IMG/VR virus record: IMGVR_UViG_3300027797_000042
Span: 1 to 49,645 of that record
DNA: 49,645 nucleotides
Origin: a virus
Direction: 5' to 3' (one strand)
Below the pieces are notes generated by a model. That model saw only the letters and a list, made by a program, of their open reading frames with translations, did not search any database and was not told where the DNA came from. The position numbers and the translations under genes are program-made. Positions 2,828-19,920 of the stretch are shown here, in pieces (position 1 is the first letter of the stretch; the number at the start of each line of letters is the position of its first letter).

Positions 2828-3178
2828 ATGGCAGTACAAAAAAATTTCGAAGTAGATCAAAATGCTACGTTTACTTTTCAGGTTCAATATACTGAAGAGG
2901 ATGCAGTAACACCAATTTCTTTAGTTGGCGCATCAGCAAAAATGCAGATCCGAGACACACCAGGCGGACCTAAGTTAGCAGTTTCATTAACATCACCATC
3001 TGGCGGTATTACCATCAATGGTGCAACTGGAACTCTAACAATTAAGCTAACACCAACTCAAACAAATAAACTGTTCTACCCAAAATCTGCCTATGATATT
3101 ATGGTCATCGATTCTGCTGGGAATAAAATTAAACTCCTCGAAGGGTTTATGGCTCTCAAAAGATCGGTGACTATTTAA
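2828..3178 (+). CDS. Tail/baseplate structural protein, BppU N-terminal-like beta domain
   Basis: 116 residues. The pattern FEVDQNATFTFQVQYTEED, then SAKMQIRD, then GTLTIKLTPTQT and a final LLEG-F strand resembles the small beta-sandwich domain found in many phage tail-fibre loci. It probably sits at the tail tip as part of the host-contact apparatus. GGAG lies 10 nt before the ATG. An ATG seven bases upstream is in another frame and soon stops. The stop overlaps the next start (TAATG), so the two genes are probably translationally coupled. Family placement is by pattern only. Confidence 0.6.
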   Translation: MAVQKNFEVDQNATFTFQVQYTEEDAVTPISLVGASAKMQIRDTPGGPKLAVSLTSPSGGITINGATGTLTIKLTPTQTNKLFYPKSAYDIMVIDSAGNKIKLLEGFMALKRSVTI

Positions 3179-3453
3179 TGAATGAAAAGATAATAGTTAC
3201 AGAAACTGTAAACAATCTTATAGTTTCTTCTCCTGGACCACAAGGTGTTCGTGGAAATACTATCTTAAACGGTAGCGGTGCACCTTCATCGAATCTTGGA
3301 ATAACAAATGATTTTTACATAGATAATGTTGAAAAAAGATTTTATGGTCCAAAACTTTCAGACACAACATGGTCTGGTGCCTCATCCTTCTTGCTTGTTG
3401 CAACAACAGTTCAAGATCATAGACATACTTATGATGGAGATGTTGTTAGATAG
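3178..3453 (+). CDS. Short tail-fibre protein with a collagen-like GPQGVRG stretch
   Basis: 91 residues. After a short N-terminal strand comes SPGPQGVRGNTILNGSG, a brief collagen-like Gly-X-Y run, then GITNDFYIDNVEKRFYGPK. The latter resembles the 'G-D-F-Y-I-D ... Y-G-P-K' motif common in phage collagen-like fibres. It likely forms a small trimeric fibre element. Translation is coupled to the preceding gene by TAATG. It is short for this family and may connect other fibre parts. The C-terminus is His-containing (QDHRHTYDGD). Confidence 0.6.
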   Translation: MNEKIIVTETVNNLIVSSPGPQGVRGNTILNGSGAPSSNLGITNDFYIDNVEKRFYGPKLSDTTWSGASSFLLVATTVQDHRHTYDGDVVR

Positions 3454-6393: not shown

Positions 6394-8181
6394 ATGTCAA
6401 CAGTAAGAATTCAAGTAAGAAGAGGAACCGCATCACAGTGGACCTCAGCAAATCCAGTTTTAGAAGCTGGAGAAATGGGCTTTGAGTCAGATACAAAATA
6501 TCTTAAGTTTGGTGACGGAACAACAGCTTGGACATCACTAGCTTATGCAAACGACCCAGGTATTGCTAACCTAACAAACACCTTAACAGGATATGTTGAG
6601 ATAACAGACATTGGAGCAATCTCAGGTGTTGCTGGATTAGACGCAAGCAAAAATCTTATTGTTCCAGGATCTTCTATTGTAATTGAAGGAGCAACAGATA
6701 ATACTTATGAGACAACACTTGTTGTTACAGATCCAACAGCAGATAGAACAATAACATTCCCAAATGCTACTGGTACAGTTGCTTTAACCTCAGATATATC
6801 AGCATTAGTGGATAGCGCACCAGGAACATTAGATACATTAAATGAATTAGCAGCGGCACTTGGTGACGATGCAAACTTTGCAGCAACAATAAGTGCAGCA
6901 TTATCTAATAAACAAAGCGTTGTTGCAAACGTTGGAGACACACAAATTGGATACCTAGCTTCAGCTACATCAAATATTCAAAATCAACTAGATGCCAAGC
7001 AAGCCATAGTTGCAAACATATCAGACACTGAAATTGGATACTTAAATAACGTAACATCAAATATACAAAATCAATTAGATGCTAAGTCTCCACTTAATAA
7101 CCCTACTTTTACGGGCACAGTTTCTCTAGATTCTTCAATTATATTTGAAGGCGCTACAGCAAATGATTTTGAAATCACATTTGCAGCAGCAGACCCAACC
7201 GCAGACCGCACAATTACACTTCCAGACGAAACTGGTACCGTTCAGCTGAGAGTTACAGATGTTTCAGATACAGAAATAAGCTACTTAAATGGAGTAACAT
7301 CTGCTATTCAAACTCAATTAGATGCTAAAGCCTCAACAACAAATTTATCTGATCATGCTTCAGATACAACTGGGATACATGGAATTGCAGATACATCAGC
7401 ACTTGCAACTACATCTGGGGTTACTACAGCTGCATCAAATGCAGAATCAAATGCAATTACTGCAGCGGGGATTGCTGCAGCTTCAGCGATTGCTACAGCT
7501 GTAACTAACCATGAAAATGATACAACAAGCATTCATGGAATTGCAGATACCAGCATACTAGTTACAACAACTGGTACACAAACTCTAACAAATAAAACAA
7601 TTACAACGCCTGCAGGACTCGTAAAAGGAGATGTAGGACTTGGAAATGTTGATAACACAGCAGATTCAGCAAAGCCAGTATCTACTTCACAGGCTTCAGC
7701 AATAGCAACTGCTAAATCAGAAGCAATTGCAGATGCAACATCACAAGTTAGCGCAATACTAAATGGTGCACCAGCAGCTCTCAACACACTTGATGAACTT
7801 GCAGCAGCACTTGGTGATGATGAAAACTTTGCAGCAACAGTAACAACCAGCCTTGGATTAAAGGTAGATTCATTAACACCAATTAGTCAAAAAACAGCAT
7901 CATATACACTTTCTTCATTAACAGAAAGAGATGACTTAATTGAAATGGGTTCAGAATCAGCACTAACTCTTACAATTCCAACAAATGCAGCAGTTGCCTA
8001 TCCAATTGGAACATCTATTGATATTCTTCAGACCTCTACAGGCCAGGTGACAATAGCAGCAGCAGGTGGAGTTACAGTAAATGCAACACCAGGATTAAAG
8101 TTGAGAACTCAATGGTCATCTGCAACTCTTTTCAAGAGAGCAGAAAATACATGGGTTGTCTTCGGAGACTTAACAGCGTAA
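6394..8181 (+). CDS. Tail fibre with Mtd-type N-terminal domain
   Basis: 595 residues. Residues 1-52 (VRIQVRRGTASQWTSANPVL... to KFGDGTTAWTSLAYA) fit the Mtd N-terminal domain family, which attaches many receptor-binding fibres. The centre has repeated ADRTITFP, DTQIGYL and LDELAAALGDD blocks, including one shared at DNA level with the 619-residue fibre. The C-terminus (SYTLSSLTERDDLIEMG... to FKRAENTWVVFGDL) is a beta domain common at fibre tips. It is a virion receptor-binding protein. AGGAG lies 7 nt upstream. Despite the Mtd-like start there is no sign of a diversity-generating retroelement nearby. Confidence 0.85.
   Translation: MSTVRIQVRRGTASQWTSANPVLEAGEMGFESDTKYLKFGDGTTAWTSLAYANDPGIANLTNTLTGYVEITDIGAISGVAGLDASKNLIVPGSSIVIEGATDNTYETTLVVTDPTADRTITFPNATGTVALTSDISALVDSAPGTLDTLNELAAALGDDANFAATISAALSNKQSVVANVGDTQIGYLASATSNIQNQLDAKQAIVANISDTEIGYLNNVTSNIQNQLDAKSPLNNPTFTGTVSLDSSIIFEGATANDFEITFAAADPTADRTITLPDETGTVQLRVTDVSDTEISYLNGVTSAIQTQLDAKASTTNLSDHASDTTGIHGIADTSALATTSGVTTAASNAESNAITAAGIAAASAIATAVTNHENDTTSIHGIADTSILVTTTGTQTLTNKTITTPAGLVKGDVGLGNVDNTADSAKPVSTSQASAIATAKSEAIADATSQVSAILNGAPAALNTLDELAAALGDDENFAATVTTSLGLKVDSLTPISQKTASYTLSSLTERDDLIEMGSESALTLTIPTNAAVAYPIGTSIDILQTSTGQVTIAAAGGVTVNATPGLKLRTQWSSATLFKRAENTWVVFGDLTA
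7136..7330 (+). repeat. Second copy of the fibre module at 4318-4510
   Basis: See 4318-4510. Differences are mostly silent or single-residue changes (TLPDATG versus TLPDETG; EIGYL versus EISYL). Confidence 0.75.
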
Positions 8182-8212: not shown

Positions 8213-9073
8213 ATGGCATCAAGTAAGAAAACAGGTAAAAAATCACAGGCAGCCAATGATTTCTTGGCCCCATTTGTACCAACAATAGGAACGGCAACAA
8301 ATGTTGGTACTGGTCGGGCATACAATAATGGTGCAGCAACAGTAACCTTTACTGCTAATGTCGATGGCCAGCCCGCTACATCTTATACAGCTACATCATC
8401 TCCAGGCGGATACACGGCATCTGGAGCGTCATCTCCTCTTACTGTTACAGGATTGCAGTCTGCAACTGCATACACTTTTACAGTAACTGCTACTAATGCA
8501 ATAGGCACATCTAGTGCTTCATCTGCTTCTAATTCAATAACTGCAACAACAGTTCCTCAAACAATTCAAACAGCTGCAGTAACATCAACAGTTGCAAATA
8601 GAGATGATCTAACATGGACCGCTCCAGAAACTGGAGGAAGTGCCATAACAAGCTATACTGTAACATCTACAGATGGCCCTTCCTATACTGGAATTCTTGT
8701 AACTTCAAAAAATATTGATGAAACTGGTGGAACTTCACAAAGCTATGATGTTTATGCATTAAATGCTAATGGAACATCTTTAGCTAAAAGAATAGGACCA
8801 GTTACAACATTCTTTTCTCCTCCAGCATTCTTTGCACCACCGCTATTCTTTGGCCCACCAGGATTCTTTGCACCGCCGCTATTCTTTGGCCCACCAGGAT
8901 TCTTTGCACCGCCAGCATTCTTTGCACCACCGCTATTCTTTGGCCCACCAGGATTCTTTGCACCACCAGGATTCTTTGCACCGCCATCATTCTTTGCACC
9001 GCCAAATTTTAGCGTTTGTAGACCAGCATGTAAAGCTCCTTACTACTGCGTCGGTGGCGGCTGTATCGTTTAA
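8213..9073 (+). CDS. Fibronectin-III-like adhesin with eleven FFxPPx repeats and a four-Cys tail
   Basis: 286 residues. Two fibronectin-III-like domains (about residues 25-112 and 113-198; note SYTATSSPGG and AYTFTVTATNAIGTS) are followed by eleven hexapeptides FF[SAG]PP[ALGSN] at residues 200-265. The C-terminal end FSVCRPACKAPYYCVGGGCIV has four cysteines spaced C-x3-C-x5-C-x4-C. There is no signal peptide, so it is probably a virion protein rather than secreted. Several repeats contain PPG, the kind of site collagen prolyl hydroxylases use, and six such enzymes are encoded just downstream. The aromatic-proline repeats could form a rigid surface or wall-binding stalk. Shine-Dalgarno AGGAG. 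Function is unknown. Confidence 0.75.
   Translation: MASSKKTGKKSQAANDFLAPFVPTIGTATNVGTGRAYNNGAATVTFTANVDGQPATSYTATSSPGGYTASGASSPLTVTGLQSATAYTFTVTATNAIGTSSASSASNSITATTVPQTIQTAAVTSTVANRDDLTWTAPETGGSAITSYTVTSTDGPSYTGILVTSKNIDETGGTSQSYDVYALNANGTSLAKRIGPVTTFFSPPAFFAPPLFFGPPGFFAPPLFFGPPGFFAPPAFFAPPLFFGPPGFFAPPGFFAPPSFFAPPNFSVCRPACKAPYYCVGGGCIV
8810..9007 (+). repeat. 18-bp tandem repeat array (11 units) encoding FFxPPx
   Basis: Eleven 18-bp units of the form TTC TTT GCA CCA CCG CTA. A higher-order 36-bp unit (FFAPPL+FFGPPG) recurs three times with almost the same codons, a sign of expansion by slippage or unequal recombination. Copy number could vary between relatives. Confidence 0.9.
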
Positions 9074-9089
9074 TAGAAAAGGACACTAA

Positions 9090-9782
9090 ATGCTTTTTTC
9101 AAAATACGCTCTAGCCGTAGAAGTAGAAGACTGCCTATTTGAAATATTTGACACTATTACTCATGAATTAGATTCAGAAATTGATAAAAGATATAAAAAA
9201 GGAACAAAAAATACAGCGATAGCTATTAAAGCTTTGAGCAATAAAAATATTAAAAATGGCTCTATCAACAATAACGGCCTATTTGAGTCTAAAGATAAAG
9301 ATGGATTTCTAGAAATTGATGATAGTCAGCATGCATTTGTTTTTTTATCAGACAACAGGGTTTTTGGTGCAAGTATAATGACACAAGAATCTCCAGGATT
9401 CGAAAAATATATTAATGCCTTTCAATCAAAAGTCTTAGTTTTAGATATATCCTTAGAAGAAAATATTGGTATAGGCGATTTATGGGATACAAAAAGTTTT
9501 AAAAATATTAATGATTTAGATAAACAAAAAAACGAAACCCCATCAAAATGGAATCAATGGAAAAAAAATTTAGGTGAATCTAGGCCATGGCACCTTTTAG
9601 ATCCAGAAAAAAAAATTCGCAGTAAAGAAATAATTAATAACAGAATGTTATTGTGCACTAGTTGCGAATTTTTCCTTCCTACAAAACAATGTAGCAAATG
9701 TCTTTGCTTTATGCCAGCTAAAGTTCACCTTTCTAATGCAGATTGTCCTATTGGCAAGTGGGGTAAAGAAGAAGATGCCTAG
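9090..9782 (+). CDS. Phage protein with C-terminal Cys-cluster (zinc-ribbon-like, DUF6171-like)
   Basis: 230 residues. The last ~45 residues carry C-x2-C (LCTSCEFF), C-x2-C-x-C (QCSKCLCFMPAK) and a final CPIGKW. This pattern recurs in many tailed phages and resembles the DUF6171 family; it probably binds zinc. The N-terminal two-thirds (KYALAVEVEDCLFEIFDTIT, FVFLSDNRVFGAS) is unrecognised. AAAGGA precedes the ATG, and the stop overlaps the next gene by 8 bases, so it opens the cassette that runs to 16011. Function unknown; a helper in fibre assembly or modification is a guess from position. Confidence 0.6.
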   Translation: MLFSKYALAVEVEDCLFEIFDTITHELDSEIDKRYKKGTKNTAIAIKALSNKNIKNGSINNNGLFESKDKDGFLEIDDSQHAFVFLSDNRVFGASIMTQESPGFEKYINAFQSKVLVLDISLEENIGIGDLWDTKSFKNINDLDKQKNETPSKWNQWKKNLGESRPWHLLDPEKKIRSKEIINNRMLLCTSCEFFLPTKQCSKCLCFMPAKVHLSNADCPIGKWGKEEDA

Positions 9783-10524
9783 TTCCCCTAAGATTATATT
9801 TTGGATAGATAAAATAAATGATTCATATCCAAAAATTGAGCCAGCATCAATTAGAAGGGAATGGATGGATAAAACATATAATAAGTTGGCGTATATGTGC
9901 ACTCCACTATTAGATGCAATGTCGGACGGCTGGGAAGTAAAACTGCCTCAAGATGTTATTGTTAAATGGAATGGATTATCTGAAGGCTTAGATGGAGAAA
10001 GACAAGACAACATATCTATTATTTCTGGAGAATTTTATGGTGACATAAAGATTGTATCTACAGATACTGGAGTAGGAGCAGTTACCTTCGTGCTTGGATT
10101 AATTGCAGAAACAGACAAAGATCACTATCTAAAAATTTCTGGCCCGCCAAATTATATATTTAAAGATGCCGAGCCATTGACAGGTTTATTGAGATCAGAT
10201 CGTTTTATGGATCATCCACTACAAGTTACCTGGAAAATAAATAATCCAGATAAAGAAATACTTTTCCCAAAGGGTATGCCCATCTGCTTTATATCGATAC
10301 ATAAAAAAAATACTACAGAGTTTACAGAAGTAGAAATTAGAGAAATAGATGAAAACAAAGGTAGCAAACTTTTAAAATATACAAAAATGAGATCAAGTTA
10401 TTTTAATAAAAATGGACCTTATAGTTTTCCTCAATTTTATAAAAATGGAATAGATCAAGACGGTCAAAAAGATTCTGAAATAATTAAAAAGATTAAATTA
10501 AAAAAAATTAAGTATCACAATTAA
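9775..10524 (+). CDS. DUF6065-like protein, copy 1
   Basis: 249 residues from the ATG at 9775 (ATGCCTAG overlap with the previous stop); an upstream in-frame ATG at 9736 lies deep in the previous gene and is unlikely. The start RREWMDKTYNKLAYMCTPLL followed by DGWEV-LPQDVIVKWNG matches the DUF6065-like pattern, and the second copy at 11890 shares it closely. PKGMPICFISI and FYKNGIDQDGQK near the end are also shared. No catalytic motif is obvious, and the protein looks mainly beta-stranded. Its repeated presence next to 2-oxoglutarate oxygenases suggests a partner or substrate-handling role, which is inference only. Confidence 0.6.
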   Translation: MPSSPKIIFWIDKINDSYPKIEPASIRREWMDKTYNKLAYMCTPLLDAMSDGWEVKLPQDVIVKWNGLSEGLDGERQDNISIISGEFYGDIKIVSTDTGVGAVTFVLGLIAETDKDHYLKISGPPNYIFKDAEPLTGLLRSDRFMDHPLQVTWKINNPDKEILFPKGMPICFISIHKKNTTEFTEVEIREIDENKGSKLLKYTKMRSSYFNKNGPYSFPQFYKNGIDQDGQKDSEIIKKIKLKKIKYHN

Positions 10525-10556
10525 TAGGATACGTGTTGCTTTAATTTATATAAATA

Positions 10557-10565
10557 TGATATACT
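10557..10565 (+). promoter_or_regulatory. Extended -10 promoter for the oxygenase array
   Basis: TGATATACT, with TTGCTT 18 bases upstream of the -10 hexamer (10536-10541). It sits in the largest gap of the cassette (10525-10601) and could drive the oxygenase genes to 16011, which are nearly contiguous from here. Confidence 0.5.
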
Positions 10566-10601
10566 GAATATATTATATCTTAATCAAGCATAGGAGCAGT
10601 T

Positions 10602-11228
10602 TTGATAAAAGAACTGATTGGACCAGGAATAGTCGTATACAGAAATGTTTTTTCTGACACAGACTCTTTGATCCGTAGATACGAAAAGGTTCTAGGAAAA
10701 GAAGAGTCTTCTTGGGTGAGCGCAGAAACAAATGAAGACGGAGTACCGCAAAATTTAGGTAGAAATTGTAAAGATTTTGTTTATGATAGACCTCAAGATG
10801 ATGAAAATGATGAACGCTCTATAGAGCTTAGGTCTTTATATGATATCGTGTTAGACCCAATAAAAGAATCTTTAAAAGACTATGAAAAAGATTTTCCAGT
10901 GACCGTAGAGTACTTTGAGTCTTTAAATATCATCAAGTATGAGCCAAATGATTTTTTTAATTACCATACCGATGATGGAAAGCATAGCAGGTACACAGTT
11001 TCTTGTGTTGGATACCTTAATGATGATTATGAAGGCGGTCAGCTTCATTTTAAATTTTTAAATGTTCTTTATACTCCAAGATCTGGAGACCTAGTTGTAT
11101 TTCCATCTGCATATATATATGCTCATGCAGCATACCCAGTTAGAAAAGGAACAAAGTATATTGTTGCATTGATGACAGATAGAACAGTCGAAGGACATAG
11201 AAATAAATATGCAGAAAGAATTGGATAA
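10602..11228 (+). CDS. 2-oxoglutarate/Fe(II) oxygenase, prolyl-4-hydroxylase type, copy 1
   Basis: 208 residues from a TTG with GGAG five bases upstream. The double-stranded beta-helix core is clear: iron ligands H122 and D124 (YHTDDG), the VGYLNDDYEGGQ turn, a PRSGDLVVFPS strand, distal H175 (YAHAAYPV) and K185 (GTKYIV) for 2-oxoglutarate. Such enzymes hydroxylate proline or other residues using O2 and 2-oxoglutarate in the cytoplasm. It is first of six different copies. The substrate is unknown; virion proteins with Pro-rich segments are plausible given the neighbours. The oxygenase call is strong; the prolyl specificity is inferred from the family. Confidence 0.88.
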   Translation: MIKELIGPGIVVYRNVFSDTDSLIRRYEKVLGKEESSWVSAETNEDGVPQNLGRNCKDFVYDRPQDDENDERSIELRSLYDIVLDPIKESLKDYEKDFPVTVEYFESLNIIKYEPNDFFNYHTDDGKHSRYTVSCVGYLNDDYEGGQLHFKFLNVLYTPRSGDLVVFPSAYIYAHAAYPVRKGTKYIVALMTDRTVEGHRNKYAERIG

Positions 11229-11231
11229 AAA

Positions 11232-11897
11232 ATGCTTGATAATGCTGAATTTTTAGCCCCAGGGATAATTGTATACAGAAATATTTTTACCCCTGAAATG
11301 GATTTAATCAATAGACTAGAAAACACCCTTTCTGATAGCTCAGACATTAATCAGTGGAGGGTAGCAAAAACTGGCTATGCCCTTGTTAACAAAAAGTACA
11401 GGGATTGCTACGATTTTAAAATCAAAAAAAATAGCAATGACGATACTGGTAAAAGCGAATCTACATTAAAATTAGAAAAAATTTGGGAAGATTCTCGTAA
11501 CGTTCAGATACCTGCAGTAGAAGATTATAGAGAGATGTTTGGCTTAGCCCCTCTTAATTATTGGGAATCTTTTAATTTTATTAAGTATGGTAAAGACCAG
11601 CACTTTGATATACACTCAGATCACGGATATTCTTATATTTGCGTGTTGTCCTCTGTAGGATATTTAAATGATGATTATGAAGGCGGTGAACTATTTTTTG
11701 ATAAGCTTAATATAAAAATTAAACCAAAGGCAGGCGACCTATACTTATTCCCATCATCCTATATATATTCTCACGCAGCAATGCCAGTAATTTCTGGGGA
11801 AAAATATTCTGTAGTCACAATGCTAGACTATTTAGAAGCACCACATACTCCAGATTATAGGGAAATAGAAAAAAGATACACTGACGGATATGTATAA
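11232..11897 (+). CDS. 2-oxoglutarate/Fe(II) oxygenase, prolyl-4-hydroxylase type, copy 2
   Basis: 221 residues, starting three bases after copy 1 and most similar to it (both start with APGI-VYRN or GPGI-VYRN). Ligands: H128, D130 (HSDHGY; an extra H124-F-D126 precedes), H181 (YSHAAMPV) and K191. The turn motif VGYLNDDYEGGE is identical to copy 1 except the last residue. Shine-Dalgarno is weak (TTGGA), so translation is probably coupled. It looks like a tandem duplicate of copy 1 that has diverged strongly, which suggests a different target residue or protein rather than simple dosage. Confidence 0.88.
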   Translation: MLDNAEFLAPGIIVYRNIFTPEMDLINRLENTLSDSSDINQWRVAKTGYALVNKKYRDCYDFKIKKNSNDDTGKSESTLKLEKIWEDSRNVQIPAVEDYREMFGLAPLNYWESFNFIKYGKDQHFDIHSDHGYSYICVLSSVGYLNDDYEGGELFFDKLNIKIKPKAGDLYLFPSSYIYSHAAMPVISGEKYSVVTMLDYLEAPHTPDYREIEKRYTDGYV

Positions 11898-12588
11898 GAT
11901 AAAAGCATATGGACATGATGAAGTAAATTCGTCTATATCTCAACTAACAATTAAAAGAGAGTGGATGGACAACACTCAGAATAAACACGCATATAACTGT
12001 TTTCCAGTATCATTAGCCAACACCCTTGGCTGGGGTATATCATTTCCAGAAGACATATCTTTTATTTGGGATGGAGTTTCAGACTCATATCCTGGACATG
12101 TAAAATTTTTGTCTGGCGAGAAATATTGTGATGCCTCAAGAGGCAGTGGAACAATAAGCTTAAAATGCGATATAGTATTAGAAACTGAACAAAATACTAC
12201 GATTCTAACTATGCCAGTCCCAAATCAATTTAATGAAGGTTTTCAGGCCTTTACAACATTGGTATCTTCATCTTTTTATCCTGGAGCAATACCAATAGTT
12301 TTAAAAATTACAAAGCCTATGGAGGTAATAACCATTAAAGCTGGGACCCCCGTAGTTAGCATACTTCCAATGTCTTTATCGCAAATTAATAATTCTGAAC
12401 TTTTGGTTATGGATAAAGATAGCCATAAAGAATTTTTGTACGAGGGATCTGAATATGGAAATGCAATTAATCAAATAACAATGACTGGCAAATGGTCTGG
12501 TTTTTATAGAAATGGAACAGATCATAAAGGAAATAAAATAGGTAGCCATGAATTAAAAAAAATAAATCTGGTAACAAAAAATGCCTAA
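11890..12588 (+). CDS. DUF6065-like protein, copy 2
   Basis: 232 residues. The block KREWMDNTQNKHAYNCFPV followed by LGWGISFPEDISFIWDG aligns with copy 1 at 9775, as do KAGTPVVSILPM and the C-terminal FYRNGTDHKGNKIGS. The ATG overlaps copy 2 of the oxygenases by 8 bases and its stop overlaps the next gene by 8 bases. The conserved Cys in YNCFPV and the P/A-x-G-x-P turn are present in all three members here. No known catalytic residues are seen. It likely works with, or on the same object as, the oxygenases; this is inferred from context. Confidence 0.6.
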   Translation: MYKIKAYGHDEVNSSISQLTIKREWMDNTQNKHAYNCFPVSLANTLGWGISFPEDISFIWDGVSDSYPGHVKFLSGEKYCDASRGSGTISLKCDIVLETEQNTTILTMPVPNQFNEGFQAFTTLVSSSFYPGAIPIVLKITKPMEVITIKAGTPVVSILPMSLSQINNSELLVMDKDSHKEFLYEGSEYGNAINQITMTGKWSGFYRNGTDHKGNKIGSHELKKINLVTKNA

Positions 12589-13306
12589 AATAATTTTTCA
12601 TTCCAATCGATTGTATAACAATGTTTCTAATAAATTCCATCCAGTACCAGCTAAAAAGCTTTTCCCAAAATGGTTTTCTAATTCAGATAGATATATTTCT
12701 ATTCCTGGTACAGAAAATAATTACATAAATCAGGAAGGCGGTAAAGTTCTTAATTTTAAAGCCTGTCCAGCTCTTATGGATTTTTTTACTTCAGGATATT
12801 TTTATACTACGCCATGCGATTTAACTTTTTATAAAAATGAAGCTGGAGAAATTCAAGTCAAAACAGAAATAGGGTTCGAAGACTTTTGTTCGAGAAGAGA
12901 CCCAATGAAAGATTTTGTTGTTCCAAAAGGATATCACGATATGCATTTTCATTGGTATCCATCATGGGCCCCAAGCCTACCAAAAGGATACAGCGCAATT
13001 TATTTGAGTCCCGTAAATAGATTTGATCTTCCATTTATAACTAGTGCTGGTATAATAGATAATGACAGCATGAATACCCCAGGGCTTTTTCCATTTTTTT
13101 TACATAAAGATTTTGAAGGAGTTATACCAGCTGGTACGCCTTACGTACAGATATTACCTTTTAAAAGAGAGGATTGGGAAATGGATTTTAAATTTTATGA
13201 CTATCAGGAGATACTTGATAGACATCAAGATCAAGCAAATAGGTACAGAACTAAAGATGGCGGGGCATATAAAAAAATAACATGGTCAAAGAAAAAATAT
13301 GAGTGA
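12581..13306 (+). CDS. Distant DUF6065-related protein, copy 3
   Basis: 241 residues. It differs at the N-terminus (PVPAKKLFPKWFSNSDRY) but keeps the KACPALMDFFTSGYF helix, which fits the 'C-x-P-L' helix of the other two copies, and ends with VIPAGTPYVQILPFKRE, matching the KAGTPVVSILPM turn. Proteins of this layout are common in T4-like cyanophages, usually unassigned. It overlaps the preceding gene by 8 bases. WxP and HxHW residues (DMHFHWYPSW) might bind a ligand or metal. Function unknown. Confidence 0.55.
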   Translation: MPKIIFHSNRLYNNVSNKFHPVPAKKLFPKWFSNSDRYISIPGTENNYINQEGGKVLNFKACPALMDFFTSGYFYTTPCDLTFYKNEAGEIQVKTEIGFEDFCSRRDPMKDFVVPKGYHDMHFHWYPSWAPSLPKGYSAIYLSPVNRFDLPFITSAGIIDNDSMNTPGLFPFFLHKDFEGVIPAGTPYVQILPFKREDWEMDFKFYDYQEILDRHQDQANRYRTKDGGAYKKITWSKKKYE

Positions 13307-13315
13307 GGATATAGT

Positions 13316-13990
13316 ATGAAAATGAATGTAGAAAGAGCTAGATTTGCAAGACAATCAATAACTCCATCAGGACATTTCGGGAACTCGGCAGAGAATATAG
13401 TAGAGCTAGAAAATTTTATTACAGAAGAAGAACAAGAGTATCTTTTAAATTTTGCAAGGAATAACACCCTATGGGACCTCACAGAGTCACAATGGAATGA
13501 AAATGGAAATATTATATATGATCATACGGTCTGGGAAAATAGAGTTGCAACAATGTCTTCTTTGATGAAAGCAGATCCAAAGGTGGTAGATTTATTAAAT
13601 ATAATAACCGAAAGAATGAGACCAATTATTGAAGAAAAGTTTGACGTCTTGGTTGATCCAGCATCACCAGCAATAGTTAGGTGGCCAGTAGGAACAATGC
13701 AGTTTCCACATGCAGACAAAGAATTGCATGAAGGCCCAGATGCGGGTACAGAAAATGAATTTCCATGGTATGACATAGGAACAGTGTTTTACTTTAATGA
13801 TGATTACGTAGGAGGAGAGCTATATTTCCCAAAACAAAATATAGTTTTTAAAACAAAGGCTAGGGGAGCATATTTTTTCCCAGGAGATTTACATTATATT
13901 CACGGAGTAAATGTAGTTAAAGAGGGGTGCAGATACACCTACCCACTTTTTTGGACAATAACAAAACTAGGAAGAGATAAAAATGAGTAG
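13316..13990 (+). CDS. 2-oxoglutarate/Fe(II) oxygenase, prolyl-4-hydroxylase type, copy 3
   Basis: 224 residues with GAGGAT before the ATG. Ligands H132/D134 (FPHADKE), H196 (YIHGVNVV) and R206 (EGCRYTYP). Arginine replaces the lysine of copies 1 and 2 as the 2-oxoglutarate anchor; both are known in the wider family. A longer loop (ELHEGPDAGTENEF) separates the HxD from the FYFNDDYVGGE turn. The start is strongly helical (ITEEEQEYLLNFARNN). It overlaps the next copy by 8 bases. It belongs to a different lineage from copies 1-2, so the array is not only a tandem duplication. Confidence 0.88.
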   Translation: MKMNVERARFARQSITPSGHFGNSAENIVELENFITEEEQEYLLNFARNNTLWDLTESQWNENGNIIYDHTVWENRVATMSSLMKADPKVVDLLNIITERMRPIIEEKFDVLVDPASPAIVRWPVGTMQFPHADKELHEGPDAGTENEFPWYDIGTVFYFNDDYVGGELYFPKQNIVFKTKARGAYFFPGDLHYIHGVNVVKEGCRYTYPLFWTITKLGRDKNE

Positions 13991-14765
13991 AGACTTTGAT
14001 TTTTTTGAGATATACCCAAAGGTAGATGTTTATAAAAATTTATTACCAGATTCACAAAAATTAGCTGATATTGTAAAGAGATCAGCAGAATCTTCTGATG
14101 GGAAATACTATTTAAGAAAATGGGATAAGTGGGCAGTATTTGGAACATACACTCAGCAAAAACATGATCCTAACGAGCCAAGAGAGTATGGTCAGGTATA
14201 TGACGATGAGAAATACTTGTCAGATTCTGTATATGACGCATACACAAAAGCTATAGCAAACTATACTGAAAGACATAATCTAAAAATGCCAGAAGGTGCA
14301 ACACTTTTGACATCATCATTTTCAAAATATGACACTAATGTTGATTTGATGAAAAATAATATGTCTATGCAGTATCACACAGATTATATTATTTCTGAAA
14401 AAGACATGCCAGGACAAAAATTCTTTTTAACATGTACAACATATTTAAATGATAATTATGTGGGAGGAGAGATTGAATTCCTGATAGATGGCAAAACATA
14501 TCCTTATAAGCCACAATCAGGAGACATACTAGTATTCCCATCAATAGAACCTTATTTTCATGGAGTTAAAACTGTTACTTCTGGAGAGAAGTTCTTTGTA
14601 AGAAATTTTGTGTCTTACCCATATTCTGGTTCACAAGAATGGTTAGATAAACAAAAATATTACGGAGCAATAAAGTGGGCAAAAATGGAACAAGAAAGAG
14701 TTGACAAAGAAAATCCTGGAAACATGAGATATATTAATATGGGGGAAAACAATGGAAATAATTAA
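13983..14765 (+). CDS. 2-oxoglutarate/Fe(II) oxygenase, prolyl-4-hydroxylase type, copy 4
   Basis: 260 residues, the longest copy. Ligands H132/D134 (QYHTDYI), H193 (YFHGVKTV) and K203 (GEKFFV). The turn is YLNDNYVGGE and the preceding strand is KPQSGDILVFPS. The C-terminal extension (about residues 225-260) is charged and helical. GGAAGAG lies upstream and the 3' end overlaps copy 5 by 14 bases. Iron and 2-oxoglutarate binding look intact, so activity is expected. The substrate is unknown. Confidence 0.88.
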   Translation: MSRDFDFFEIYPKVDVYKNLLPDSQKLADIVKRSAESSDGKYYLRKWDKWAVFGTYTQQKHDPNEPREYGQVYDDEKYLSDSVYDAYTKAIANYTERHNLKMPEGATLLTSSFSKYDTNVDLMKNNMSMQYHTDYIISEKDMPGQKFFLTCTTYLNDNYVGGEIEFLIDGKTYPYKPQSGDILVFPSIEPYFHGVKTVTSGEKFFVRNFVSYPYSGSQEWLDKQKYYGAIKWAKMEQERVDKENPGNMRYINMGENNGNN

Positions 14766-15462
14766 GCATGAAGATGAAATTTTTCATATAACTGATGTAG
14801 TCACAAAAGATGAAGCAGAGAAGGTTATACAATATCTAGAATTTTTATCAGATTCAAATAATTTAAAATGGAATCAAATTTCATTTTATGACTCGTACGC
14901 TATGGGATTTTGGAATACAGATCCAACCCTACTTAATTTCGGTTTGCCAGCGGACTACTTTTTGCAACTAAAGCTAAAAATTAAAAAATTATGCGAGCAG
15001 GTCCTTGAAAGAGATTTAGATGAAGTTAGCTACCATGCACAAAAATGGATAGAGGGTGCTTTTGCTAGCTTTCACTCTGATAATACAGACGCAGATGGTA
15101 ATTCTACGGCATTTGAAAGAAGCAAGTACGCTGCATTCATGTATTTGAATGAAGATTTTACTGGAGGCATATTAAATTTTAGAGACTATGATATAAGCAT
15201 TACCCCAAAGATTGGAATGCTTGCAGTTTTTTCTGGAGGCCAAGGGCACGAGCATGAAGTCACAAAAGTTAAATCTGGAACAAGATATACAATCGGTTCA
15301 TTTTGGGACAATGCTGGCATTGTTTATACCGAAGAGCAAAAAGCAATTAGAGCGGAAGAGCTTGCAAAAATAAGAAAAGATCAAGAAGAAAGCTACAAAG
15401 TTTGGGCAGAAAATAAAGAAAAAGGAATAACGCCAGACTACCTTGGTAAAAATGGAGAATAA
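14752..15462 (+). CDS. 2-oxoglutarate/Fe(II) oxygenase, prolyl-4-hydroxylase type, copy 5
   Basis: 236 residues, with GGGGGAA just before the ATG. Ligands H108/D110 (SFHSDNTDADG), H168 (HEHEVTKV) and R178 (GTRYTIG). The turn has drifted to YLNEDFTGGI. A C-terminal charged helix (EEQKAIRAEELAKIRKDQEE) extends beyond the core and may mediate binding to a partner. The core is complete, so it is likely active. Directly abuts copy 6. Confidence 0.87.
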   Translation: MEIIKHEDEIFHITDVVTKDEAEKVIQYLEFLSDSNNLKWNQISFYDSYAMGFWNTDPTLLNFGLPADYFLQLKLKIKKLCEQVLERDLDEVSYHAQKWIEGAFASFHSDNTDADGNSTAFERSKYAAFMYLNEDFTGGILNFRDYDISITPKIGMLAVFSGGQGHEHEVTKVKSGTRYTIGSFWDNAGIVYTEEQKAIRAEELAKIRKDQEESYKVWAENKEKGITPDYLGKNGE

Positions 15463-16011
15463 GTGAATTCAACAAAGCTATATGAAAACGTATACTATTA
15501 TGATAATTTATTTGAAAATATAAATGATTACCTAGATCTTTTATCTGATGATGATCTTATATGGGAAGATTGGTTTTCAAGTAATAATTTATTTCAATAT
15601 GGGCATTATACTGGCGGTCAACATACTCTGAAAGCAACATTATTAGATCCAATTAAAAATGCTATGGATATTTGTCTAAAAGATTATGTAAAAAATACTA
15701 ATTTAAATTTTGGGTGGATTCCAGAATTTTATAAAATACACAGATATTTTACTGACTCTTACATGGGGCCACACGTAGACTCTATAGACAAAACATCTTT
15801 AAAGTCACCAACAATATCAATTGTTATTTATTTAAATGATGATTACGAGGGTGGAGAGATATATTTCCCAGAACAAGGAATAAATATAAAGCCAAAGGCT
15901 GGAAGCATGATTATATTTCCATCATATGCTCCATATTACCATCAAGCAAAAGCAGTAACAAAAGGCACCAAGTACATGTGCCCAATATTTTGTTTCAAGG
16001 AGCCTTTTTAA
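15463..16011 (+). CDS. 2-oxoglutarate/Fe(II) oxygenase, prolyl-4-hydroxylase type, copy 6
   Basis: 182 residues, the shortest copy and nearly a bare core. It starts at a GTG placed immediately after the previous stop, with GGAG five bases upstream. Ligands H104/D106 (GPHVDSID), H160 (YYHQAKAV) and K170 (GTKYMC). The turn IYLNDDYEGGEIYFPE is closest to copies 1-3. It ends within three bases of the -10 box of the next, leaderless gene, so it closes the cassette. Confidence 0.88.
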   Translation: MNSTKLYENVYYYDNLFENINDYLDLLSDDDLIWEDWFSSNNLFQYGHYTGGQHTLKATLLDPIKNAMDICLKDYVKNTNLNFGWIPEFYKIHRYFTDSYMGPHVDSIDKTSLKSPTISIVIYLNDDYEGGEIYFPEQGINIKPKAGSMIIFPSYAPYYHQAKAVTKGTKYMCPIFCFKEPF

Positions 16012-16013
16012 GG

Positions 16014-16019
16014 TATAAT
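16014..16019 (+). promoter_or_regulatory. -10 box of a probable leaderless promoter
   Basis: TATAAT ends 6 bases before the ATG at 16026, and no Shine-Dalgarno is present. The expected start of RNA is the A of the ATG. The -35 is poor. Spacing is identical at 44525-44530 and 49309-49314. Confidence 0.6.
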
Positions 16020-16025
16020 CTTATT

Positions 16026-17933
16026 ATGTCCTATAAGTACTCAGTAATAAAAGATAATCCACTAGGCTTTTGGTTTTTAGATGAGCAGTCTGGAACTACC
16101 GCCATAGATATATCTGGTTGCGGAAATAATGGAGTTTACTTACAGTCCTTTTCTAACCCTCCTTTGCCCCTGACATACGGAGGAATCAATTCAGTAGAAA
16201 TAAGTAATTTGCAAAGTATTACTTTTCCACTAACATATAATTATTATGGTATAAGCAAAGAGACCCCAATTGCAAACAGCAGCTATTCTTATAATCCTTT
16301 TACAATAGAATGTTTTATTTATCCAAAAAGTCTTACATCAACAATGGAGCCAGTTGTTGCAGATGCAGCATCAGGGGTTGGTCTTTATGCCAATAACAAT
16401 GGAGTAGCATTTGCATTAAAGGGTTTGTCAGATTCTAATTCAAGAGTTGATTTTGCCATACCTAACTTTAGCCGTGTTGTACATATTGTATGTGTTTATT
16501 CTGTATCAGATATATCAATATATATAGATGGAGAAAAGCAGGCAGTAAAAACACTAGACAACTTTAACTTTACTAACTCCTCTTTGGCATTAAAGTGTGG
16601 TCCAACATCTAGCTCATCAAATAAATTTTTAATAGACTCTGTTGCAATATACAGGTACTCCTTGTCAGAGTCTCAGATACAAAATCATTACAGCCTAGCA
16701 CAATCCATACCAGCCTTTAATACAGTATTCCCAGATTTGGGAGAGTTGTTTGATATATATGATACAAACATATCAACTAAATTTGAGTACTCTTATCCAG
16801 CTAGAAAGCCCTGGAAAGACATGACAACTTCAGGGCTAGAATATAATTTTATAAAAAATAGAATACAAATTCCTATAGGCACTGGAAATTCTCAGTCAGC
16901 ATTTTTTACCGAATTTTTATATATACCATCACAATACGGAATAGATAGCTCTAAGATAGAGTGGGTAGCAACAAGCGGTGTCGCTGTATACTCCAGCCTT
17001 GACGGGGTAACATATGTTCAATGTGAAAACGGATCTAAGATACCTCAATATGGAAATTATACAAGCGGGGAAAGCTTTAGTAGTTCTTATCAGCTTTATA
17101 TAAAGGTAGTTTTTACAACAACCAACGATCTTTTAAACAATCCTTTTATGCAAAGCCTAACTATTAAATTTTATAAGTCACAAACTCTTTATGCAACAAA
17201 CTCATCTAGCTATATATATCAAATGACAGATGATTCGGCATATGACTCAAAGTCATATATTGGAGACCAAAAATACGCAATTCTTTCTAGGAATAAGTAC
17301 GGAGGCATTTGCACAAAAGAAGATTCTGGATTTTATTTAAATTTATCTAACCTTTCTACATCAATGGAATTCTTTTATACCCCCAAAGACTTGTCTGGCG
17401 GCGGGCTTATATACAGAGTTGATCCTAACATTATAGAGCTCTCTGGAGGCCTATACAACACCTCTTACACTGGTCTAGATATAGTTAGTGGAGGGCTGTA
17501 CAACTCATCTTATACGACCTCCTATGACGCAGGACAGGTAAATAGAGATATAGGAGTTGCTTACACATGGGCTTCTTCTGGAGCTATTACCAAAGATAAT
17601 ATTAAAAAAATATATGTAAATGGGGTAGATAAAACATCTCAAACTTCAATATCAAATGTTTTTAAGGCTGGAGAAATGTACCACGTAGTACTTGTTTTTG
17701 AGGAGCAGATAATAAATTCAGTTAAGATGGGTTATTCTGTCGACGGAGGTTCTGAATCTCTATATCAGTATATATCAATGTATGACTACGAGCTAGACTC
17801 TGGAATTGTCTCTGATCACTACCAAATTTATATAAATGGAGACCCAACAGTAATATCTGAAGCGTCCTTCTCCCTGACAGAAAATGCAGTTGAGCTGTTC
17901 GATAACGACTGGCTTGTGATTCAAAACGTTTAA
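16026..17933 (+). CDS. LamG/concanavalin-like structural or adhesin protein
   Basis: 635 residues. The ATG at 16026 is preferred over an in-frame ATG at 15978, which would overlap the last oxygenase, because a -10 box sits at leaderless distance. The start SVIKDNPLGFWFLDEQSGTT and NNGVYL are classic LamG openings, and IECFIYPKSL, VDFAIPNF and IYIDGEKQAVKTLD continue the fold to about residue 215. A second beta-rich part with a duplicated SGGLYNTSYT / SGGLYNSSYT motif follows. It probably binds carbohydrate and is displayed on the virion. Placement between oxygenases and the head genes is unusual for a fibre. Codon use resembles the fibres. Confidence 0.7.
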   Translation: MSYKYSVIKDNPLGFWFLDEQSGTTAIDISGCGNNGVYLQSFSNPPLPLTYGGINSVEISNLQSITFPLTYNYYGISKETPIANSSYSYNPFTIECFIYPKSLTSTMEPVVADAASGVGLYANNNGVAFALKGLSDSNSRVDFAIPNFSRVVHIVCVYSVSDISIYIDGEKQAVKTLDNFNFTNSSLALKCGPTSSSSNKFLIDSVAIYRYSLSESQIQNHYSLAQSIPAFNTVFPDLGELFDIYDTNISTKFEYSYPARKPWKDMTTSGLEYNFIKNRIQIPIGTGNSQSAFFTEFLYIPSQYGIDSSKIEWVATSGVAVYSSLDGVTYVQCENGSKIPQYGNYTSGESFSSSYQLYIKVVFTTTNDLLNNPFMQSLTIKFYKSQTLYATNSSSYIYQMTDDSAYDSKSYIGDQKYAILSRNKYGGICTKEDSGFYLNLSNLSTSMEFFYTPKDLSGGGLIYRVDPNIIELSGGLYNTSYTGLDIVSGGLYNSSYTTSYDAGQVNRDIGVAYTWASSGAITKDNIKKIYVNGVDKTSQTSISNVFKAGEMYHVVLVFEEQIINSVKMGYSVDGGSESLYQYISMYDYELDSGIVSDHYQIYINGDPTVISEASFSLTENAVELFDNDWLVIQNV

Positions 17934-18339: not shown

Positions 18340-19920
18340 ATGGAACATATTGATGAAGCACCAGAAGTAAACGATGAGATTCAATTATCTAGCGCTGCAG
18401 ACTGGTTTTCTTTTAAAAAGGAAACAGAGCACGATGACCCCTTCCTAATCCAATTAGATGATATTAGAAAATTAAACGGATTAAGTCCAGCATTTCGCAG
18501 AAAGCTTAGCAGAGAATTTTCAAAATCTTTTACTGGAATAGATAGTGCATCAACACAGCAGAACTTATTGGCACAAGCCATTACTGGCTATGCAATGTTT
18601 GACCTGGTTCAACCAATATATAACTTAGAATATCTTTCAAAAATCTATGAAGTTTCTACATATAACTATGCAGCAATTAATGCAAAAGTTGCAAACATTG
18701 TGGGTCTTGGATATCAGTTTGATGAAACAAGAAAAACAAACGATGCTTTAGACGGAATCACCGATGAAAAACAATTACAGAGAGCTAGAAAAAAGCTTGG
18801 AAAACTAAGACAAGATTTAGAGCAGTGGCTAGAAGATGTAAATGATGAAGAGACATTTACAGAGACTCTCATTAAGGCGTATACAGATTTAGAAGCGACT
18901 GGTAACGGCTTCATTGAAATAGGCAGAACAACCCGTGGAGATATTGGTTATATAGGCCATATCCCAGCAAAGACAATGCGTGTAAGAAGACTTCGTGATG
19001 GATTCATGCAATTACTTTATGGCAAGGCAGTCTTCTTCAGAAACTTTGGAGATCAAGAAACGCCAAACCAAATTGCTGGTGGTCTAGAAAGACCAAACGA
19101 AATTATTCATCTAAAAAAATATACACCAATGGATAATTATTATGGAATCCCAGACATCATAGCTGCCCAGGTAGCACTTGCTGGAAATGAATTTTCTGGT
19201 CAATATAACCTTGACTACTTTCAGAATAAAGCAGTACCAAGATATATAATTACCGTTAAAGGTGCTAAGCTTTCTCCAGAATCAGAAAGAAAATTACTTG
19301 AGTTTTTCCAGGTTGGATTAAAAGGCAAAAATCATAGATCACTTTATGTCCCGCTTCCAGCAGATACTCCTGACTCAAAAGTTGAATTTAAGATGGAGCC
19401 AATAGAGGCGGGATCACAGGAATCATCATTTAATGTTTATCGCAAGGCAAATAGAGATGAAATTCTTTTGGCCCATAGAACACCAATTTCTAAAATTGGT
19501 ATTCCTGAAGGAATTAATTTAGCAGCAGCCAGAGATGCAGATAAAACATTTAAAGAGCAGGTTTGCAGACCAGCACAAATGAGATTAGAGAAAAAAATTA
19601 ATTTAATTATTGCTGAAAAAACAGATGCGGTTCAAATTAAATTTAATGAGCTTAGCCTTACAGATGAAGATACTCAGTCAAAGATTGATGAGAGATATTT
19701 GAGAATGCAGGTTATTACTCCAAACGAAGTCCGACTAAGAATGGGTAAAATTCCAATTGAGGGCGGAGACGAAGTTATTCAATTAAAGCCACAACAGCAG
19801 GCAGAAATTAGAGCTCAGGCTGGGCAGACAAGAACCAGAGATAAAGAGAGACAAAATAATTCCCCAGATATTTCTGGAGAAGCCAGAAATCCAAAAGGCG
19901 ACGGCAGTAAAGTAGAATAA
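18340..19920 (+). CDS. Portal protein
   Basis: 526 residues, the normal size. Matches the PBSX-type portal pattern: YNLEYLSKIYEVSTYNYAAINAKVANIVG, then HLKKYTPMDNYYGIPDIIAA, then NLDYFQNKAVPRYIITVKGA. It forms the dodecameric ring at one head vertex that admits DNA and joins the tail. GGGAG precedes the ATG. The C-terminus is acidic/polar (residues ~485-526) and may be flexible. Well placed before protease, scaffold and capsid. Confidence 0.9.
   Translation: MEHIDEAPEVNDEIQLSSAADWFSFKKETEHDDPFLIQLDDIRKLNGLSPAFRRKLSREFSKSFTGIDSASTQQNLLAQAITGYAMFDLVQPIYNLEYLSKIYEVSTYNYAAINAKVANIVGLGYQFDETRKTNDALDGITDEKQLQRARKKLGKLRQDLEQWLEDVNDEETFTETLIKAYTDLEATGNGFIEIGRTTRGDIGYIGHIPAKTMRVRRLRDGFMQLLYGKAVFFRNFGDQETPNQIAGGLERPNEIIHLKKYTPMDNYYGIPDIIAAQVALAGNEFSGQYNLDYFQNKAVPRYIITVKGAKLSPESERKLLEFFQVGLKGKNHRSLYVPLPADTPDSKVEFKMEPIEAGSQESSFNVYRKANRDEILLAHRTPISKIGIPEGINLAAARDADKTFKEQVCRPAQMRLEKKINLIIAEKTDAVQIKFNELSLTDEDTQSKIDERYLRMQVITPNEVRLRMGKIPIEGGDEVIQLKPQQQAEIRAQAGQTRTRDKERQNNSPDISGEARNPKGDGSKVE

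Follow-up and report, generated by a model that had tools for sequence, protein, structure and literature searches.

Viral prolyl 4-hydroxylases (P4Hs), phage 2-oxoglutarate- and Fe(II)-dependent (2OG-Fe(II)) oxygenases and viral protein hydroxylation are already known. The P4H of the PBCV-1 virus has been tested on collagen- and polyproline-like peptides, Mimivirus L230 and the collagen-like fibre proteins of that virus are an example of viral enzymes hydroxylating and glycosylating viral fibre proteins, and the extensins of plants are Pro-rich rods of low complexity, the hydroxylation of which is carried out by several P4H paralogues. PMC9301287, which refers to Eriksson et al. 1999 for the occurrence of 4-hydroxyproline in proteins of viruses, notes that viral use of prolyl 4-hydroxylase "remains cryptic"; EGLN-like folds are known in phages (PMC12774648), and the cyanophage S-SCSM1 carries 24 2OG-Fe(II) oxygenase genes, the functions of which were not investigated (PMC9602691). 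Such oxygenases are common in aquatic phages. Here, we describe a cassette in a 49.6-kb IMG/VR virus record (IMGVR_UViG_3300027797_000042; the window, i.e., the whole 49,645 nt analyzed), in which the gene of an aromatic-diproline repeat protein (nt. 8213-9073) lies upstream of an array of six oxygenase genes (nt. 10602-16011). Given that the repeat gene and the array almost always occur together, these phages probably hydroxylate their own fibre repeats. We read the cassette as a self-contained fibre-modification module with the repeats as its dedicated substrate and predicted hydroxylation most likely at proline, and place the probability of this reading at roughly 0.7.

The repeat gene, transcribed in the forward direction, encodes a 286 a.a. 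protein comprising a fibronectin type III (Fn3) region (PF00041, 5.9e-9), followed by 11 tandem FFxPPx hexamers (the proposed substrate) and a tail with Cys. The hexamers are encoded by an 18-bp tandem array on the same strand (nt. 8808-9004; 10.9 copies via Tandem Repeats Finder). An earlier note, generated by a model from the sequence alone, had described a Pro-rich repeat protein beside hydroxylases, and this was confirmed, with a maximum of two FFxPP motifs (mean 0.04) seen across 2000 shuffles of the protein compared to the 11 units present. The same note named PPG, the collagen-type target, as the motif of interest; while PPG does occur in 4/11 units, it is not a common feature, as many phages exhibit FF[SAG]PP[LRSNQ] or FFPP/YFPP/HFPP units. 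With a FFxPPx hexamer as its unit, the window protein displays neither the G-X-Y triplet repeat nor the Ser-Pro(n) blocks of extensins. All genes from the repeat gene to the portal gene are on the forward strand with intergenic gaps of -47 to 77 bp, and although the array is indeed downstream of the repeat gene, it does not follow directly as had been stated, given that two genes (nt. 9090-9782 and nt. 9736-10524) stand before the first oxygenase.

Pairing was counted from the repeat side using pattern scans that considered only the repeat (three copies of FFxPP or of [FY]FPP), with all figures being among the matches listed, and with oxygenases detected by a hidden Markov model (HMM) built from this oxygenase family, which other oxygenase types would escape. 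Relatives of the window repeat protein have 4-7 oxygenases downstream at nearly every locus. For 79 distinct repeat genes, 2.5 kb of flanking sequence was available both before and after the gene; a same-strand oxygenase begins in the downstream flank of 74 of these, and one is seen in the upstream flank of two, compared to 4/202 background open reading frames (ORFs). When 6 kb of downstream sequence was available, 96/102 repeat genes had at least one oxygenase within 9 kb (median five). The carriers of the pair include many freshwater phages, with about five oxygenase genes downstream. Ten records seemed to be array-less; five of the six that are at least 34 kb in length have PF13640 arrays elsewhere in the record (in G058 and G060, a second repeat tract adjoins the distant array), and the four shorter records are 7-15 kb fragments. 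Some loci that appeared to hold a repeat without an oxygenase were thus set aside as second repeat genes of phages with an array elsewhere. We did also note a phage in which a second aromatic-PP protein (L155:7793-10174, reverse strand, 793 a.a) is present in addition to the array-linked one, and some phages therefore have two repeat genes.

The converse count, made with oxygenase queries and the same family-built HMM on clusters of three or more oxygenases, recovered a repeat gene in 28/28 and 32/33 cases. In the only unpaired cluster (L548), the genes carry frameshifts and remnants of the repeat, out of frame, lie immediately upstream of the array; the cluster was not retained as a counter-example, as its repeat gene looks frameshifted rather than absent. 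The co-occurrence proposed by the earlier note as a check thus held in both directions (74/79 repeat genes and 60/61 oxygenase clusters), and FFxPP genes commonly standing without any oxygenase, which it gave as grounds for refutation, were not seen, all but one of the apparent cases on contigs of 34 kb or more having an array elsewhere.

A further sample was chosen blind to the repeat and the array, based on 75-99% identical portal proteins, and gave 35 loci with enough upstream sequence. The distribution in these portal relatives is all-or-none, with 16/35 containing both array and repeat and 19/35 containing neither (Fisher 2.5e-10, with the caveat that the rows are kin), and a search for an aromatic-PP ORF in the 19 array-less relatives found none. 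FFxPP is seen in the locus of 12/16 array-bearing relatives, while in L097, L121, L122 and L124 the same Fn3 protein with HFPP/FFPP/YFPP units lies slightly further upstream. These units were read directly in the L097 and L122 records; L121 and L124, the contigs of which end near the array, were assigned by identity with L122, the three portals being identical. At the equivalent syntenic place, array-less relatives have unrelated fibre genes, several with glycine-rich ends. In two of the array-less loci (L086 and L091), we observed a Fn3 region like that of the window protein, which is followed by a Gly-rich tail where the window protein has its aromatic-PP repeats.

The pairing also extends beyond one protein family and one phage lineage. 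The repeats occur behind seven N-terminal families (Fn3, PASTA-like and others), with oxygenases accompanying five of these, and 15/37 long repeat-bearing records, 64-205 kb in size, contain no homologue of the window portal. These findings bear on the proposal that the oxygenases act elsewhere, such as on the host envelope, on small metabolites or the 2-oxoglutarate level, or on other phage proteins, and simply co-travel with the repeat gene because both lie in a fibre locus subject to exchange. This locus is variable, and phage 2OG-Fe(II) oxygenases have been interpreted as host-metabolism genes (PMC9602691); however, the other fibre genes that relatives swap here come with no array, and the pairing holds both ways, across N-terminal families and in phages without a window-type portal, leaving this proposal very unlikely in our estimation. 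Outside of these phages, a search of 84,980 genomes of bacteria and archaea found the repeat to be nearly absent, with 11 pattern matches, none of which lies beside an oxygenase or resembles the phage genes; a cellular origin of the repeat was rejected. When three repeat proteins were compared by tblastn to 50,697 phage records, the search returned one weak match (an unannotated faecal phage, the repeats not being involved), noting that the low-complexity filter may hide repeat-only matches. Given the lack of a true match in those records, we know of no cultured model.

All six P4H-like genes of the earlier note are present in the window as intact PF13640-type oxygenases transcribed in the forward direction: oxygenase 1 (nt. 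10602-11228, 1e-11, HxD..H..K), oxygenase 2 (nt. 11232-11897, 5.9e-13), oxygenase 3 (nt. 13316-13990, 0.0035; PHROG_2297, 8.8e-11), oxygenase 4 (nt. 13983-14765, 3.8e-9), oxygenase 5 (nt. 14752-15462, 1.5e-9) and oxygenase 6 (nt. 15463-16011, 2.4e-13). Five of the six pass the PF13640 gathering score, and oxygenase 3, which is below it (18.7 of 27 bits), falls inside the family by tree. The catalytic HxD...H motif and a downstream basic residue are kept in all six by alignment and in 706/727 oxygenase ORFs overall. As a single-protein query, oxygenase 6 already finds the Bacillus anthracis P4H (3.5e-5), which is also the best match of the family profile (4.1e-13), followed by human prolyl 3-hydroxylase 1 (P3H1; 7.1e-11), the PBCV-1 P4H (3.3e-10), and further algal, human collagen and HIF prolyl hydroxylases. 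The fold comparison was made for oxygenase 6, for which the AlphaFold2 (AF2) model (pLDDT 95.2) displays a P4H fold, closest to the PBCV-1 P4H (5c5t, 1.6e-8) and the B. anthracis P4H via Foldseek, and with Z values of 16-17 to HIF, algal and EF-Tu prolyl hydroxylases via VIA. By sequence and predicted structure, the array enzymes are closest to prolyl hydroxylases, and their function is assigned by homology. The oxygenase tree comprises about six anciently diverged subfamilies in a fixed gene order, of which those of oxygenases 2 and 3, the most and second most widespread, are common to phages lacking a window-type portal (93/102 and 81/102 repeat cassettes, respectively, among the matches listed). 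The retention of several anciently diverged paralogues suggests a division of labour, in which different paralogues may act on different positions of the unit, or produce 3- versus 4-hydroxyproline.

Across relatives, the first aromatic of the repeat unit may be F, Y or H and neither x position is fixed, with one Phe and the Pro-Pro common to all variants; together with the prolyl-hydroxylase homology, this shared core points towards proline as the target. It would also suit Phe, a possible target residue, and a reading in which the enzymes mainly modify non-proline residues (the Phe beta-carbon, the His/Tyr of HFPP/YFPP, or the variable x) draws on the varied targets of PF13640 enzymes, the F/Y/H choice at the first aromatic, a Phe as invariant as the PP, and the 5-6 divergent paralogues, which suggest more than one target. 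Given that the closest matches, by sequence as well as by structure, are for the most part prolyl hydroxylases with protein substrates, and that the x positions are too variable for a common target, we regard this reading as unlikely, and infer that the array modifies the aromatic-PP repeats, most likely at proline. The core interpretation of the earlier note, that the oxygenase array modifies the FFxPP protein, is thus supported by the two-way pairing and the enzyme homology, while its second target and its glycosyltransferase were not. The second target, a "collagen-like" protein (nt. 3178-3453), contains just three GXY triplets (GPQGVRGNT) and has no Pfam match. The left-edge glycosyltransferase (nt. 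3-431), the sole glycosyltransferase ORF scanned in the window and the supposed decorator of hydroxyproline, is a truncated Glycos_transf_1 domain with no tie to the cassette, and was dismissed as a partner, as no cassette-wide GT4 cluster was present in the 30 largest context families.

Based on its position and Fn3 domain, the repeat protein may be a fibre or tip component, with its repeats hydroxylated in the infected cell by the prolyl-hydroxylase-like enzymes before assembly. Hydroxylation would yield a stiffer polyproline-like rod and provide hydroxyls for hydrogen bonding or further decoration. The repeat protein could alternatively be exported to the host surface (e.g., with a part in superinfection or aggregation) and undergo its modification there without forming part of the virion, as might suit the short PASTA-like and HINT-tailed versions that exist among relatives; however, no signal peptide was recognized by eye in the repeat protein and, as far as position is informative, its gene lies inside a run of tail-fibre genes beside the Mtd_N, LamG and portal genes, and we consider export improbable. 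More broadly, we lean only slightly towards a widespread phage system, in which a distinct enzyme battery would produce hydroxyproline-rich, possibly glycosylated, collagen- or extensin-like virion-tip material, each paralogue acting on its own residue or carbon.

Several points weigh against hydroxylation of the repeats at proline by the array. On the portal tree, the pair trait changes state about three times, which does not suffice to assess significance phylogenetically; a sign test on this tree offered 1-3 independent pairs and was discarded as uninformative. The PF13640 fold does not determine the target residue. One repeat-bearing record of 36.8 kb (L281) has no PF13640 match. Cyanophages carry many such enzymes, but this analysis found no aromatic-PP repeat gene linked to them, and repeat modification is therefore not a role common to all phage oxygenases.

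Besides the six oxygenases, the cassette encodes three proteins of the DUF6065/PHROG_7084 type and another with a Cys-rich PHROG_13558 end, all on the forward strand. The latter (nt. 9090-9782; PHROG_13558, 2.8e-11, in a C-terminal segment) lies between the repeat gene and the array, and has homologues at the equivalent position in 13 loci. The DUF6065 proteins (nt. 9736-10524, PF19541, 4.8e-31; nt. 11890-12588, PF19541, 2.5e-26) and a third, DUF6065-like protein that aligns with both (nt. 12581-13306; PHROG_7084, 6.8e-35) belong to a group that accompanies the oxygenases in most cassettes. While no PDB relative was found by sequence, the AF2 model of the second (pLDDT 91.8) resembles the dUTPase fold with moderate scores (Foldseek 2.7e-4, VIA Z about 11). 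Upstream, a tail-fibre protein with a Mtd N-terminal domain (nt. 6394-8181, forward strand; PF18454 Mtd_N, 2.7e-17) ends 31 bp before the repeat gene; downstream, the module is closed by a LamG-type protein (nt. 15978-17933, forward strand; PF13385, 4e-15), which is conserved beside the portal whether the array is present or not. The portal protein (nt. 18340-19920) shares ~58% identity with Streptomyces phage portals, making an actinobacterial host plausible. Elsewhere in the window, we noted a ribonucleotide reductase related to the B12-dependent type beside structural genes (nt. 519-2453) and, between it and the fibre genes, an 83-a.a. protein that combines a single EF-hand-like calcium loop with a hydrophobic stretch (nt. 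2507-2758).

Relatives exhibit accessory domains and genes. A HINT tail follows the repeats in many (profile A3 to BIL 2lwy, 1.1e-7), which may allow autocatalytic cleavage of the fibre protein; self-cleavage is thus possible in HINT-bearing relatives, while a C-terminal HINT domain was looked for on the window protein and is absent. This HINT/intein-like domain lies directly after the repeats (L005, L006, L037, L158, L353 and others), often with a Cys start and a HN end. One repeat protein (L352:3040-5559, 839 a.a) combines FFPP blocks, Thr/Glu-rich mucin-like stretches, Cys-containing repeats and a HINT tail. PF11397 (GT60) glycosyltransferases were present in 11/50 repeat records compared to 1/25 controls, a weak enrichment given that the set was partly hand-picked with knowledge of the gene. 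Those near repeat/oxygenase cassettes (L387:2562-3548, L170:8652-9602, L352:1357-2268 and L375:8774-9685) are candidate hydroxyproline glycosyltransferases, the family including the Dictyostelium Skp1 hydroxyproline GlcNAc-transferase. Proteins inside other cassettes (L373:1223-2032, L297:6805-7593 and L336:1225-2013) start with HIPKTSG/HIPRTSG and appear sulfotransferase-like by eye, with no match in a Pfam scan of those from L373 and L297.

In sequence-string and topic searches of the open-access literature, neither the repeats nor their pairing with oxygenases were described, and the substrate class and multi-enzyme layout are without precedent in the literature searched. The near one-to-one pairing predicts a substrate for these oxygenases, and mass spectrometry can therefore address the question directly. 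If this is true, phages produce a hydroxylated, repeat-based fibre material of their own, using at least two core enzymes that they share and further lineage-specific ones.

Compared to known systems, cyanophage 2OG-Fe(II) oxygenases (PHROG_61 and PHROG_81) belong to the same superfamily, with PF13640 among their domains and PHROG_61 matching oxygenases 1 and 2; however, their genes are scattered, whereas those of the cassettes form one array with the repeat gene. The Mimivirus system involves lysine hydroxylation of G-X-Y collagen, while the window has P4H-type enzymes and no G-X-Y repeat. In the case of extensins and their P4Hs, CrP4H with (Ser-Pro)5 matches the oxygenase 6 model (Z 16.6), but extensins contain a Ser-Pro(n) motif and belong to the eukaryotic cell wall, in contrast to the Phe-Phe-x-Pro-Pro of the phage repeats. 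The B. anthracis P4H (3itq, 5hv0), a small bacterial P4H and the best family-profile sequence match, is a single cellular enzyme that is not known to have an adjacent aromatic-diproline protein. Finally, the PBCV-1 P4H (vCPH), the top Foldseek match, is like the window enzymes virus-encoded and of PF13640 type, but PBCV-1 infects algae, whereas the phage cassettes bring together 5-6 paralogues with one dedicated non-collagen repeat gene.

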